Positions 3,164 through 10,648 of a stretch of DNA of 48,491 nt are shown here, piece after piece (positions within the stretch are counted from its first letter, which is position 1; the number at the start of each line of letters is the position of its first letter). A program made the position numbers and the translations under genes. The notes beneath the pieces were generated by a model. The model did not search any database. It saw only the letters and a list, made by a program, of their open reading frames with translations, and was not told the origin of the DNA. The stretch is from Methanosarcinales archaeon (lineage in GTDB: Archaea > Halobacteriota > Methanosarcinia > Methanosarcinales > Methanogasteraceae). The stretch is from positions 1 through 48,491 of the forward strand of contig RXIK01000144.1 of the NCBI GenBank assembly GCA_004211975.1, given 5' to 3'.

Positions 3164-3856
3164 ATGACATATAATCTTGGCATCTCCAAAATGGATGAGC
3201 TGATAGGGGACATCAAAGGTGGCACAAACATCATGATGATCGGTCCCCCTATGAGTGGTAAGGATGACATCACAAACATCATCGCATATCATGGGTTAAT
3301 CAACAAAAACGCCGCGGTGATTGTTTCAACACGCGAACCCGGTAAAAATGTCCTTGACTGGTTCGAAAACCGTGCCCTGGGAATTCCACCAGAGCATATC
3401 GGGATCGTGGACTGCGTTACCAGAACGCTGGGGTTCGGCGCGCCCGACACCGAGAACATCAAGATGGCGTCAAGCCCTGTTGACCTCACAGGCATCGGCG
3501 TCAAGATCAGCCAGTTCTTTGAACGGTTCTGGATGGAGATGCAGATAAAAGAGACACGGTTGTGCATCAACTCGCTCTCAACAATCCTCATGTACTCAAA
3601 CCTCCAGACAGTGTTCAGATTCTTACACGTATTCACAGGCCGCGTAAAAGCAGCAAATATGCTTGGCGTGTACGTGATCGAGGACGGAATGCACGATGAT
3701 AAAACGATCGTGACGCTCAAACAATTATTCGATGGTATGATCGAGATACGAGGGGACGATGGCGATTATCAGATACGCGCTATCGGGCTTTCGCCAAAAC
3801 CAACACCATGGTTTGACTACGAGATCGACGGCGTAAACATCGTGTTGCGAGGCTAA
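3164..3856 (+). CDS. KaiC/RAD55-like RecA-superfamily ATPase
   Basis: A single RecA-type domain of about 230 aa. The Walker A loop is GPPMSGKDD, with Asp after the Lys where Ser/Thr is usual, so nucleotide binding may be altered. A hydrophobic strand ending RLCINSLST occupies the Walker B position but lacks a clear acidic residue. Archaeal proteins of this kind are thought to act in signalling rather than recombination. The ATG before TYNLGISKMDEL is chosen; an in-frame ATG lies 15 nt upstream. The stop codon overlaps the next start (TAATG), so it is coupled to the ATPase-GTPase fusion. Its biochemical role is unknown. Confidence 0.8.
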   Translation: MTYNLGISKMDELIGDIKGGTNIMMIGPPMSGKDDITNIIAYHGLINKNAAVIVSTREPGKNVLDWFENRALGIPPEHIGIVDCVTRTLGFGAPDTENIKMASSPVDLTGIGVKISQFFERFWMEMQIKETRLCINSLSTILMYSNLQTVFRFLHVFTGRVKAANMLGVYVIEDGMHDDKTIVTLKQLFDGMIEIRGDDGDYQIRAIGLSPKPTPWFDYEIDGVNIVLRG

Positions 3857-7001: not shown

Positions 7002-8003
7002 ATGGATGCGAAAATCAAAGCGATCCTCATCGCAGAGGGTCTGGCAGATATTGATCCCGAACTGCTTGACCGCCCGAAAGTATCGACCGCGGGACCGGGC
7101 GCGGGCATCTCCTCCTTTTTTTTCAGGTCAGGCAGTCACCGCGTTCGCCTGGAGGCAAAAAGAGACCCGGATGCCCGGCTCAAAGTTCAGCGAGTATCAC
7201 CAGAGGACGGTGAGGTTGCAATCCTCTACGATGACCAAGAGATTGTGCGCGGCACCATCGAACCCACGTTGCTACACTGCCCTGAGCAAGCATACCTCAC
7301 CATCAGCGAGCGGTGCATATACAACTGCACGTTCTGCCCGGTCCCGAAGCTTAAAGGCAGAACCAAGTCTCACGACAATATCCTGAAGATGGTTGCTGAC
7401 GCATACACCACCGGAAACATGCGCGCGATCTCCATTACATCTGGAATTGAGCATTCCCCGGAGGATGAGGTTAAGCGAGCTGCCAGTGTTGTGAAATCAC
7501 TTGTAAGATATAATGTTCCGATCGGCGTCTCAGTATATCCAACCGCGGACTCTTCCATGATCCTGAAGGAAGCAGGAGCTATTGAAATCAAATACAACGT
7601 TGAAACAATGGATCGAAACATCTTTAAGAGTGCATGTGCCGACATGGACCTTGATTTTGTGCTTAAATCGCTTGAGGACGCCGTCAGAGTATTTGGCAGG
7701 AACCGGGTCCACTCAAACTTCATCATTGGTCTTGGAGAATCTGATGAAACCGTGAAAAAGGGTGTGCGGGTGCTCGCAGAACTTGGAGTGATCCCCATAC
7801 TCCGCGCGCTTGTCCTGCACCCGCTTCGCCCGGACATTATGGATGTATGCCCGGGTGCTGCGCGCCCGAGCGCGGATCGCCTGCTCATGCTAGCACGATT
7901 CGAGCGGAAGGTGCTGGATGACTGCGAGCTTAACGCCAGCATATCAGAGACAATGTGCCTGCAATGCACGGGTTGCGATCTTGTGCCGCACCGGGATGTG
8001 TGA
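7002..8003 (+). CDS. Radical SAM protein, biotin synthase-related (COG2516-like)
   Basis: A 333-aa radical SAM enzyme. The cluster-binding motif CIYNCTFC (CxxxCxxC, near residue 105) follows an N-terminal domain of about 95 residues. A radical SAM barrel follows, with strands such as AISITSG and NFIIGLGES. The C-terminus has a further cysteine set, MCLQCTGC, which may hold a second cluster. It resembles archaeal biotin synthase-related proteins of unassigned reaction. It is not the McrA arginine methyltransferase Mmp10, whose motif differs. It stands alone, with the cold-shock gene 146 nt downstream behind its own promoter. Confidence 0.8.
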   Translation: MDAKIKAILIAEGLADIDPELLDRPKVSTAGPGAGISSFFFRSGSHRVRLEAKRDPDARLKVQRVSPEDGEVAILYDDQEIVRGTIEPTLLHCPEQAYLTISERCIYNCTFCPVPKLKGRTKSHDNILKMVADAYTTGNMRAISITSGIEHSPEDEVKRAASVVKSLVRYNVPIGVSVYPTADSSMILKEAGAIEIKYNVETMDRNIFKSACADMDLDFVLKSLEDAVRVFGRNRVHSNFIIGLGESDETVKKGVRVLAELGVIPILRALVLHPLRPDIMDVCPGAARPSADRLLMLARFERKVLDDCELNASISETMCLQCTGCDLVPHRDV

Positions 8004-8027
8004 ACACAGAACGAAACTATTTTACCC

Positions 8028-8040
8028 AAATATTTATGTA
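8028..8040 (+). promoter_or_regulatory. TATA box of the cold-shock gene
   Basis: AAATATTTATGTA is a good archaeal TATA element. Transcription would begin about 25 nt downstream, near 8060, giving a leader of roughly 90 nt that begins just before the long-range stem described next. The position is inferred from sequence only. Confidence 0.5.
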
Positions 8041-8066
8041 GAACTTACCCCTACTGGTGTGTGAAC

Positions 8067-8142
8067 CTAAAGTAATACAAAAGTAAAGAGGAGCGATCTG
8101 TGGAAGTTAGCTCTTCCGGCTTTATGTTACTTTAGTGGAGGA
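8067..8142 (+). promoter_or_regulatory. Structured 5' leader of the cold-shock gene ending at its ribosome binding site
   Basis: CTAAAGTAA (8067-8075) pairs perfectly with TTACTTTAG (8127-8135), and the Shine-Dalgarno TGGAGGA follows at once. A second AAAGTAA (from about 8080) competes for the same partner. Inside, GGAAG (8102-8106) pairs with CTTCC (8113-8117), while GAGC (8091-8094) can instead pair with GCTC (8110-8113), and these two exclude each other. The layout suggests a leader that changes fold to alter access to the ribosome site. Temperature sensing is an inference from the gene it precedes. Confidence 0.5.
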
Positions 8143-8148
8143 TTAACG

Positions 8149-8346
8149 ATGGAAGGAACAGTTAAATGGTTCAATATCAAGAAAGGATATGGCTTTATCA
8201 CTGGTGATGACGGTGAGGATTATTTTGTGCATTATACAGCCATAAAAGACAACGCATTTGTGCGTGATGAGGACCGTGTGTCTTTTGACTCTGCGCAGAC
8301 CGAGCGAGGAAAACAAGCTCAGAACGTCGTGCCACTTGAAGATTAA
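8149..8346 (+). CDS. Cold-shock domain protein (CspA family)
   Basis: A 65-aa nucleic acid chaperone consisting of one cold-shock OB-fold. It begins MEGTVKWFNIKKGYGFI and has RNP1 (KKGYGFI) and RNP2 (DYFVHYTAI), with Tyr replacing the usual Phe at two aromatic positions (YGFI, DYFVHY). It binds single-stranded RNA or DNA and melts secondary structure. It has a strong ribosome binding site (GGAGG, 7 nt upstream) and a TATA box, so it is a single-gene unit. Csp proteins are mainly bacterial but occur in some mesophilic and cold-adapted archaea, so this suggests a cool or temperate habitat. Confidence 0.95.
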   Translation: MEGTVKWFNIKKGYGFITGDDGEDYFVHYTAIKDNAFVRDEDRVSFDSAQTERGKQAQNVVPLED

Positions 8347-8627
8347 AACAAAAATAACCGTTGTTGGAGCAGATCGTACACACCCAGGTCCTGTGGATTG
8401 CTCATGGTCAAAGTTATCATGTTACTATGGCTTACGAGTAGAATAGCAGGACTTTAGGGTTTTTAGAGAGCGAGATTCATTCAAAAATCTTATGAGCCGC
8501 GCATAATTAAGTTGAACAAAACCAACTTTGTCGGTAACTACTCAGGTACCTAAAACCACTATCAAGAGACTTCGCTATGCAGGAACCATCTGGGATGTAG
8601 TGAATACTATAACCAAACCGGGAATTT
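8347..8627. other. Intergenic region with a degenerate inverted repeat B fragment
   Basis: No gene is supported. The run GAGATTCATTCAAAAATCTTAT (8472-8493, shown here only to locate it by position and its GATTCATTCAA core) resembles the reverse complement of repeat B seen near 28.4 and 40.5 kb. The rest shows no clear structure. Confidence 0.3.
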
Positions 8628-8729
8628 AACCGCGGAGGGCGCAGAGGGACGCGGAGGGGAAATAAACGGTTAAACACTCTCTCGTTCCTCTGCGCCCTCC
8701 GCGGTTATTTTTTCTTACCAGAAAGTACC
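8628..8729. repeat. Palindromic GC-rich repeat C, copy 2
   Basis: Complete copy of the element cut at the window start. A perfect 20-bp inverted repeat, AACCGCGGAGGGCGCAGAGG at 8628-8647 and its complement at 8687-8706, encloses a 39-bp centre. A shared T-rich tail runs to 8729. It could form a long hairpin in RNA or a cruciform. No coding capacity. The two copies differ by only a few bases. Confidence 0.8.
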
Positions 8730-9303: not shown

Positions 9304-9810
9304 TCAGTTGATTGTTATCTTCTCTCGACAGATGCCGTTTACGTCTCCATACACGATTTTTACGCTTACATTCTTCCCGGTAAGCTCTTCCACTGCTCCT
9401 TCGAGGTACCCGCGCGTGATAGCACAAAGTGGGGATTCTGTTGTGAGTTTACGATCCTTAAGAATGTCACGTATGAAACACTTAAATATATTGATATATA
9501 GTGTATCACCCTCAATGTGGTCAAGTTCCATCTCATATCCATACCACATATCTGTCTGATAGATAAATGTGTCCAGAGCCTCTTCCACATTTTCGATCGT
9601 GCCAAAACGTTTTTTTGCTGCTTTCCCAAGCCGTCTTCCCGAAGCTTCACCCATAGTTGCAAAGAAGTCTTCAGCCTCGCCCGGTTTTGTCATGTCATCC
9701 ATTATACATGAAACTTCGCCGGCAAGTATCGTTAGTGCTTTGTTAAGAGCTTTAGAATCCTTCAATTCATCTTCTAACGAGTCTACCTTCATCTGTTTGG
9801 TGTCAGGCAT
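9304..9810 (-). CDS. V4R-like ligand-binding domain protein (paralogue 1)
   Basis: A 168-aa soluble protein whose C-terminal half fits the V4R (4-vinyl reductase, hydrocarbon-binding) pattern: a strand with YINIFKCFIRDIL, then a Cys-containing turn and helix TRGYLEGAVEELTGKNVSV, then a final strand near GICREKITI. The N-terminal helix (VDSLEDELKDSKALNKALTI) looks coiled-coil. V4R domains bind small molecules or act as sensors; no ligand is known here. The start with GGAG 8 nt upstream is chosen over in-frame ATGs further out. It has the same length as its upstream paralogue, so the pair arose by tandem duplication. Confidence 0.65.
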   Translation of the reverse strand: MPDTKQMKVDSLEDELKDSKALNKALTILAGEVSCIMDDMTKPGEAEDFFATMGEASGRRLGKAAKKRFGTIENVEEALDTFIYQTDMWYGYEMELDHIEGDTLYINIFKCFIRDILKDRKLTTESPLCAITRGYLEGAVEELTGKNVSVKIVYGDVNGICREKITIN

Positions 9811-9980
9811 ATTAACATCTCCAATCATGGGTATGACTGAATTCATATAAATGTTGTTTAGCTTGTGGTCTTCCAAAACCAGTTCGCGCCAGAAAATACA
9901 TTTAATAACCTCTCACCAAGCGCACTCGTAGTGGTTGCATAGTCAGCACGAATGGATTCAGGCTACTATATCTTCAGCAT

Positions 9981-10487
9981 TTACTTAATAACGATTTTTT
10001 CCCGGCATACGCCGCCAACATCGCCATATACGATATCTACGTCCACATCTTTCCCGGTAAGCTCATTCAATGCTCCTTTAATGTAACCGCATGTGATGCC
10101 ACAAAGTGGAGATGTGGTTGTGAGTTTCCGATCCTTAAGAATGTCTCGCACAAAACAATTGAGCACGTTAATATAGATCGTGTTACCCTCAATATGATCA
10201 ATTTCAATGCCATACCCGCGTAACAATTCAGTATGATACATGAGAAGGTCCAGAGCTTCTTCCACCTTCGCGATCGCGCCAAAACGCTCTTTTGCGCCCT
10301 TACCAAGACGTCTTCCAGCATCTTCACCCATAACCCTACAGATACTCCTTGCTTCGTCCGTCTTCGCCATCTCCTCAAGCACCATCGAAACTTCGCCTGC
10401 AAGTACGGTCAACGCTCTGTTATGTGCTTTACAGTCCTCAAGTTCATCGTGCAACGATTGCACCTGCAATTTTTCTGTATTAGACAT
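9981..10487 (-). CDS. V4R-like ligand-binding domain protein (paralogue 2)
   Basis: Also 168 aa and alignable along its whole length with the downstream gene: SLHDELEDCKAHNRALTVLAGEVS, then CFVRDILKDRKLTTTSPLCG and GYIKGALNELTGKDVDV. The ribosome binding site GGAGG lies 7 nt before the ATG. It is transcribed away from the ribosomal operon. A 21-bp palindrome (10649-10669) sits about 160 bp upstream in the shared control region. Conserved cysteines (CFVRD and SPLCG) could bind a metal or cofactor. The function is unknown; a regulatory or sensing role is inferred from the domain. Confidence 0.65.
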   Translation of the reverse strand: MSNTEKLQVQSLHDELEDCKAHNRALTVLAGEVSMVLEEMAKTDEARSICRVMGEDAGRRLGKGAKERFGAIAKVEEALDLLMYHTELLRGYGIEIDHIEGNTIYINVLNCFVRDILKDRKLTTTSPLCGITCGYIKGALNELTGKDVDVDIVYGDVGGVCREKIVIK

Positions 10488-10648
10488 GGTAACGCCTCCG
10501 GTTTGCATCCGGTTTGCCTCCAGTTCAATATATGCTTTTCATGCACATAAGTTTTATTGTGCGCATGAACAATTGAATTTCCAGCGAAACCATTGCGTTT
10601 TGCGGTAGCCAGAATCATTGATTTCATGGTTTTAATACGAATATGCGC

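Follow-up and report, generated by a model that had tools for sequence, protein, structure and literature searches.

The csp gene in the DNA analysed here (48,491 nucleotides in all, from a methane-cycle archaeon; hereafter the window) is preceded by a leader in which an 11-bp stem, P1, links the predicted mRNA 5′ end to the nucleotides immediately upstream of the Shine–Dalgarno sequence (SD). This stem recurs in other sequence, with compensatory base changes, in the leaders of one class of archaeal csp genes, distant archaea included, and its position at the predicted transcript start and at the SD recurs with it. Together, the results point to a real and so far undescribed control element, and not to a temperature switch. 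Our best reading, which we consider about equally open to proving right or wrong, is a leader in which a constitutive clamp of the 5′ end would present the SD to the ribosome. The features of the leader and its gene are as follows, with the basis given in brackets where it goes beyond the sequence itself.

8024–8040, plus strand: BRE/TATA-like promoter element ACCCAAATATTTATGTA, predicting a transcription start at about 8058–8066
8067–8077, plus strand: 5′ arm of P1, the proposed clamp stem, CTAAAGTAATA, at the predicted mRNA 5′ end (fold and conserved pairing)
8080–8084, plus strand: 5′ arm of inner helix P2, AAAGU, pairing with 8119–8123 (minimum-energy fold)
8080–8086, plus strand: second AAAGTAA, putative competitor for the 3′ arm of P1
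8088–8094, plus strand: 5′ arm of an internal hairpin, GAGGAGC, pairing with 8110–8116 (predicted fold)
8102–8117, plus strand: alternative internal hairpin, GGAAG (8102–8106) with CTTCC (8113–8117), probability 0 in the window
8110–8116, plus strand: 3′ arm of the internal hairpin, GCTCTTC, a pyrimidine tract near the UUUCUU site of relatives (predicted fold)
8119–8123, plus strand: 3′ arm of P2, GCTTT (minimum-energy fold)
8125–8135, plus strand: 3′ arm of P1, TGTTACTTTAG, ending 1 nt before the SD (fold and conserved pairing)
8137–8142, plus strand: SD, GGAGGA, predicted mostly unpaired
8149–8346, plus strand: csp gene, 65-aa cold-shock domain protein (PF00313, E = 1.1e-20; CSD family)

The preliminary description of this DNA had picked out a perfect 9-bp long-range stem adjoining the SD, and this observation is borne out: the core, CTAAAGTAA (8067–8075) with TTACTTTAG (8127–8135), is extended by two further pairs to 8077/8125, and the SD begins one base past the stem. 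The predicted transcript, 8058–8148, folds at −25.6 kcal/mol (z = −3.19), a value equalled by 1 of 200 shuffles, and the stretch 8060–8160 gives a folding z of −2.36. The helix abutting the SD has p = 0.002–0.005 against shuffles (0.002 when the upstream part alone is shuffled), and the csp leader ranks best for such a helix among the 45 SD-bearing genes of the window. Because the BRE/TATA-like box predicts a start at 8058–8066, P1 is expected to open within some 10 nt of the mRNA 5′ end; this predicted start lies upstream of position 8075, the side on which the preliminary proposal of a structured leader needs it.

The genome holding the window is 2.66 Mb in size, and within its order close matches to the csp gene are confined to its own genus. 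Since only 5 of 185 genomes of the order match at all, three within the genus and two weakly and partially, the gene was probably acquired laterally. The sister genes are found in Methanosarcinales archaeon CSMAG_2052 and CSMAG_1137, and the nearest relatives outside the genus in Altiarchaeota (78% identity), a Euryarchaeota MAG (76%) and Woesearchaeota/Nanoarchaeota. When the window leader is used as a DNA query against the same 185 genomes, 129 have matches at E ≤ 1, but long ones occur solely in the genus's three csp-bearing genomes, and all others are short and weak.

To follow the stem beyond the genus, csp loci were collected from named genomes and by phylum-wide searches (193 of 371 genomes in the phylum of G193; in the remaining three phylum draws, 17 of 34, 16 of 29 and 32 of 148). 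Setting aside 36 loci without a recognizable start and locus L102, which contains N bases, gave 116 distinct leaders, from which 14 were removed (halophile-type, other low-identity csp and one odd start) to leave 102; the 92 of these with a clear SD entered a cleaner helix count. The helix score requires a 3′ arm ending no more than 2 nt from the SD and is judged against shuffles of the upstream part alone, and csp frames (53) were removed from the control gene sets. By this score an SD-abutting helix with p ≤ 0.05 is found in 26 of 102 csp leaders versus 6 of 62 control genes and, in the cleaner repeat, in 28 of 92 versus 9 of 145 other genes of csp-bearing genomes (Fisher 9e-7), with strong helices in 27 of 92 versus 4 of 145. 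Some 70% of the leaders in the same csp class have no significant helix by this simple SD-abutting score. A further search returned nine loci, four of them left out as leaders already in the set, and two of the five new leaders qualify. Selecting purely on the 3′ side, by the motif T[TC]TAG before the SD, picks out 12 of 102 csp leaders and none of 62 controls; for the upstream complement in these 12, the combined p is 7.8e-11, and 2.3e-9 if the sister L003 is left out.

The preliminary description had staked its proposal on compensatory changes in the csp leaders of relatives, and these are found. In an ungapped, SD-anchored alignment of 11 leaders, 94.5% of cells are paired and two-sided changes occur at 6 of 10 pairs; the covariation score is reached by 0 of 500 shuffles, and sliding the partner lowers the paired fraction to 35–55%. 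The 11 rows were picked for having the helix, so the alignment speaks for compensation and not for frequency. In the two sisters, L003 and L007, all pairs of P1 are kept, with two one-sided changes, U–G to U–A and G–C to G–U. A structure-blind MAFFT alignment of the diverse leaders did not bring the helices into register. A covariance model, R1, made from a hand-made seed of seven relatives' leaders with the window excluded, is weak and was dropped as a search model, because it missed the window leader and matched few non-seed leaders. Its 23 matches in 100 sources include several that are antisense or far from the gene; on the sense strand, the non-seed leader matches are L098 (0.053), L033 and L034 (0.31), L051 (0.35) and L059 (7.2), while the match in L018 (0.088) overlaps the start codon and that in L199 (6.2) falls on a stretch of unassigned strand. 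On 59 further loci R1 returned the seed member L222 and one chance match only. Three leaders, L183, L187 and L190, are longer and carry GAGCATCTT and UUUCUU-like strands near the SD, possibly a distinct sub-structure.

The 5′ arm keeps step with the promoter. Of 75 leaders whose TATA box is clear, 42 have their best SD-abutting helix beginning 26–42 nt past the box (20.5 ± 3.6 in shuffles), an interval fixed after looking at the TATA-to-arm distances; a repeat places 41 of 71 leaders in this interval versus 19.3 expected, and 18 of 21 strong helices start there. The interval holds 6 of 16 usable control genes versus 3.4 expected, and 3 of another 16. The distance from the arm to the ATG ranges from 36 to 83 nt; because the 5′ arm tracks the predicted start despite this variation, the stem is predicted to connect the SD with the 5′-terminal bases of the transcript. 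The window has both marks by which we would define an archaeal csp SD-clamp leader, an SD-abutting helix beyond that of shuffles and a 5′ arm 26–42 nt past the TATA box, its distance from the start of the box being 34 nt, like those of its relatives.

The stem also follows the gene class. The proteins encoded behind it start mostly M-x-G-T-V-K-W-F-N, and the second archaeal csp class, which is more distant and mostly of VKFFN type, gives no clear sign of it (4 of 31, from 39 paralogue loci less 8 without SD or start). Many of the genomes behind these loci (L343–L381) carry two csp classes, and the VKFFN-type class is without UUUCUU near the SD. Among bacterial and viral csp leaders, just 2 of 43 have an SD-abutting helix with p ≤ 0.05, and a leader pattern like that of the window was not found in viral contigs. 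The exact sequence TTTAGTGGAGGA occurs shortly before an ATG 15 times in 13 of the 371 genomes searched: the stem is present at both csp occurrences (p = 0.003 and 0.013), and at the other places, 12 of them distinct, p falls below 0.05 once, ahead of a 37-codon frame. That the window leader is one case of a structured leader common to one archaeal csp class is a conclusion we hold at even confidence.

The proposed clamp would work through the pairing of the first transcript bases with the bases directly before the SD. With its 5′ end tied down in this way, the whole leader would become one self-contained hairpin, leaving SD and start codon free. Such a clamp may act in cis on the RNA and constitutively, may protect the mRNA 5′ end and may prevent the SD from being covered by the folded leader; csp would then stay translatable when cold folds other mRNAs shut. 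In the window the SD is predicted to be unpaired with a probability of 0.92 at 37 °C and 0.76 at 5 °C, where shuffled leaders give 0.55 and 0.47, respectively; across the set, the SD is not significantly freer than with shuffled leaders (53 of 92, p = 0.14; helix-bearing leaders 19 of 29, p = 0.06). More faintly, the UUUCUU found about 21 nt before the SD in relatives might be a Csp site for feedback. We tentatively see here, at somewhat less than even confidence, an undescribed family of archaeal cis-regulatory RNAs that tie the 5′ end to the SD and, with UUUCUU in some members, close a feedback loop for an RNA chaperone, an archaeal solution unlike the refolding by which bacterial cspA meets the same problem. 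Its hosts, a claim of similar standing and a little short of an even chance, would be csp genes of a Methanosarcinales lineage, Altiarchaeota, Woesearchaeota/Nanoarchaeota and nanohaloarchaea.

Feedback could also be the main purpose of the leader. After the clamp, the next candidate mechanism, though a rather unlikely one, is a leader that serves mainly as Csp's own binding site (UUUCUU in relatives, CUCUUCC in the window); by an equally doubtful route, Csp on the pyrimidine strand would open the inner helices and the stem, lowering or raising its own synthesis. UUUCUU is enriched, occurring in 24 of 102 csp leaders versus 1 of 62 control genes, mostly 13–23 nt before the SD, and in 17 of 92 versus 2 of 145 in the cleaner repeat. 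In some leaders, such as L052 and L092, it supplies the 3′ side of an inner helix, AAGUAAGAG/CUCUUUCUU; in most, no convincing pairing is seen (17 leaders, combined p 0.008), and its retention even where poorly paired is what a protein site would call for. By analogy, the motif suggests Csp feedback in the relatives, as it resembles the pyrimidine-rich consensus GTCTTTG/C given for B. subtilis CspB (PMC7825780). Against this, exact GTCTTT[GC] occurs in 0 of 102 csp leaders, TCTTT is not enriched (31 of 102 versus 11 of 62 controls, p = 0.1), and UUUCUU is absent 10–26 nt before the SD of the window, where CUCUUCC stands instead.

The clamp and the feedback site would both be RNA elements. The paired arms might instead be a DNA inverted repeat, the site of a transcription regulator at the start; archaeal repressors often bind at the transcription start site, and in most helix-bearing relatives the 5′ arm lies on the predicted one. 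We regard this as improbable: the arms lie 4 to 39 nt apart among relatives, which is unusual for one operator, and the position of the 3′ arm is fixed relative to the SD, a translation signal. In addition, pairs 1–8 of the 11-leader alignment hold 11 G–U cells versus 1 mismatch, counted by hand in rows picked by a score that itself prefers G–U over mismatches; G–U is asymmetric in DNA, and its excess would fit RNA more than a DNA palindrome.

A temperature switch, in which the leader would refold between two states and so alter SD access in the cold, was the idea of the preliminary description, and its elements are present in the window: a second AAAGTAA, described as competing for the same partner in P1, and two inner hairpins, GAGGAGC/GCTCTTC and GGAAG/CTTCC, that share bases and are thus mutually exclusive. 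What survives of the switch-like leader is the structured RNA before an archaeal csp gene, with its compensatory changes; the refolding finds no support. Fold predictions at several temperatures (ViennaRNA) give one stable fold, with P1 at a probability of 0.91–0.99 over 4–60 °C and the SD mostly open throughout, slightly less so in the cold (paired at 0.32 at 4 °C and 0.13 at 37 °C and above, in a fold of 8058–8208). The supposed competitor pairs with a probability of 0.000 in the window and at most 0.002 in L007, and forcing it costs 7.7–9.4 and 2.6–4.5 kcal/mol, respectively; in L003 the second copy reads GAAGTAA. The stem of relatives is equally flat, the median P1 probability falling from 0.94 at 5 °C to 0.87 at 50 °C across 24 helix-bearing leaders including the window, of which L017 and L027 do not form the named helix in the predicted ensemble and L020 forms it at less than 0.5. 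Both inner hairpins can be drawn in the window sequence, but substitutions break GAGGAGC/GCTCTTC in both sisters, so the either/or pair is not a conserved feature. One trait does favour switching: in L003 the GGAAG/CUUCC hairpin rises from 0.35 at 37 °C to 0.80 at 4 °C (range 0.20–0.80), with SD exposure little changed. No temperature range is predicted to hide the SD and another to free it, as in an RNA thermometer. The flat P1 of window and relatives and the costly competitor led us to reject a thermodynamic switch, which we consider unlikely to a similar degree as a DNA operator.

Window positions 8088–8135 contain GAGGAG, 6 nt, and a GTG opening an 11-codon frame whose TAG ends one base before the csp SD. 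A leader peptide read from this frame (GTG 8100 to TAG 8135, with the SD-like GAGGAG at 8088–8093), its translation opening the stem, would be very improbable and was rejected: the frame is present in L003 too, with amino-acid changes, but frames ending at the TAG occur in 7 of 12 leaders versus 4.3 expected, not above chance, and the SD-like GAGGAG is gone in both sisters. Functionless chance structure in an AT-rich leader, for which the non-significance of most single leaders of the class and the weak R1 might speak, is just as hard to credit against the enrichment over control genes, bacterial csp and the second archaeal class, the rule-based T[TC]TAG subset and the tie of the 5′ arm to the predicted start.

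Bacterial mRNAs such as ompA bear 5′-terminal stabilizing stem-loops. The csp stem likewise sits at the extreme 5′ end of the predicted mRNA; unlike these, it also places its 3′ arm right at the SD and goes with one archaeal gene class. No Rfam family matches the window. The E. coli cspA thermoregulator, RF01766, has no match in the window at the gathering score, nor at E ≤ 10 in 7950–8400, in keeping with the earlier suggestion of an archaeal counterpart that differs in sequence from the bacterial leader. Among relatives tested, the sole RF01766 match, a weak one far below the cut-off, covers a csp leader and gene start (L216, 75–301; 21.7 bits, E = 0.014, cut-off 78). As in cspA, a structured 5′ leader precedes a cold-shock-domain gene and the SD is exposed in the translated form (PMC9947658). 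The window leader is about 85 nt long, whereas that of cspA is about 160 nt (PMC5378194), and it has a stable stem to the 5′ end where cspA has two temperature-dependent folds; an exchange of two conformations that changes SD access is not predicted at 4–60 °C, and the missing temperature response weakens the idea that the leader works like cspA.

The list of cis-regulatory RNAs known from Archaea is short (PMC7247131). The archaeal ribosomal-protein leaders described there (S15, eL15 and L4) are likewise covarying leader RNAs of archaeal genes with RNA-binding products; they belong to other genes and have other structures, and the term 'csp' has 0 occurrences in that paper. In the methanogenic archaeon Methanolobus psychrophilus, long 5′ UTRs are proposed to act in cold (PMC5378194), a parallel in their link to cold; unlike the leader described here, they involve stem-loops masking the ribosome site and alternative starts, and the accessible part of that paper describes no archaeal csp leader. 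A literature search by title and abstract, with most subscription papers outside its reach, returned no description of an archaeal csp leader element, and csp orthologues are said to be missing from most Archaea (PMC5572242). If the clamp proposal is right, csp-bearing uncultured Archaea would control csp through their own kind of RNA element, one linked to start site and SD, and a short reporter construct could put it to the test.

The surroundings of csp genes provide some further observations. A 19-bp sequence, ACCGCGGAGGGCGCAGAGG, occurs three times in the window with 0 mismatches, at 50–68, 8629–8647 and 8687–8705 (0.01 expected at ≤3 mismatches), and the copies at 8629 and 8687, located between csp and the genes that follow, form an inverted repeat. 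Two neighbouring minus-strand genes, 9304–9876 and 9981–10508, encode similar proteins of 190 and 175 aa, the former with a sub-threshold V4R-domain match. Beside the csp gene of locus L010, a tRNA match extends over 126 bases (3623–3748), which suggests an intron-bearing tRNA in that MAG.
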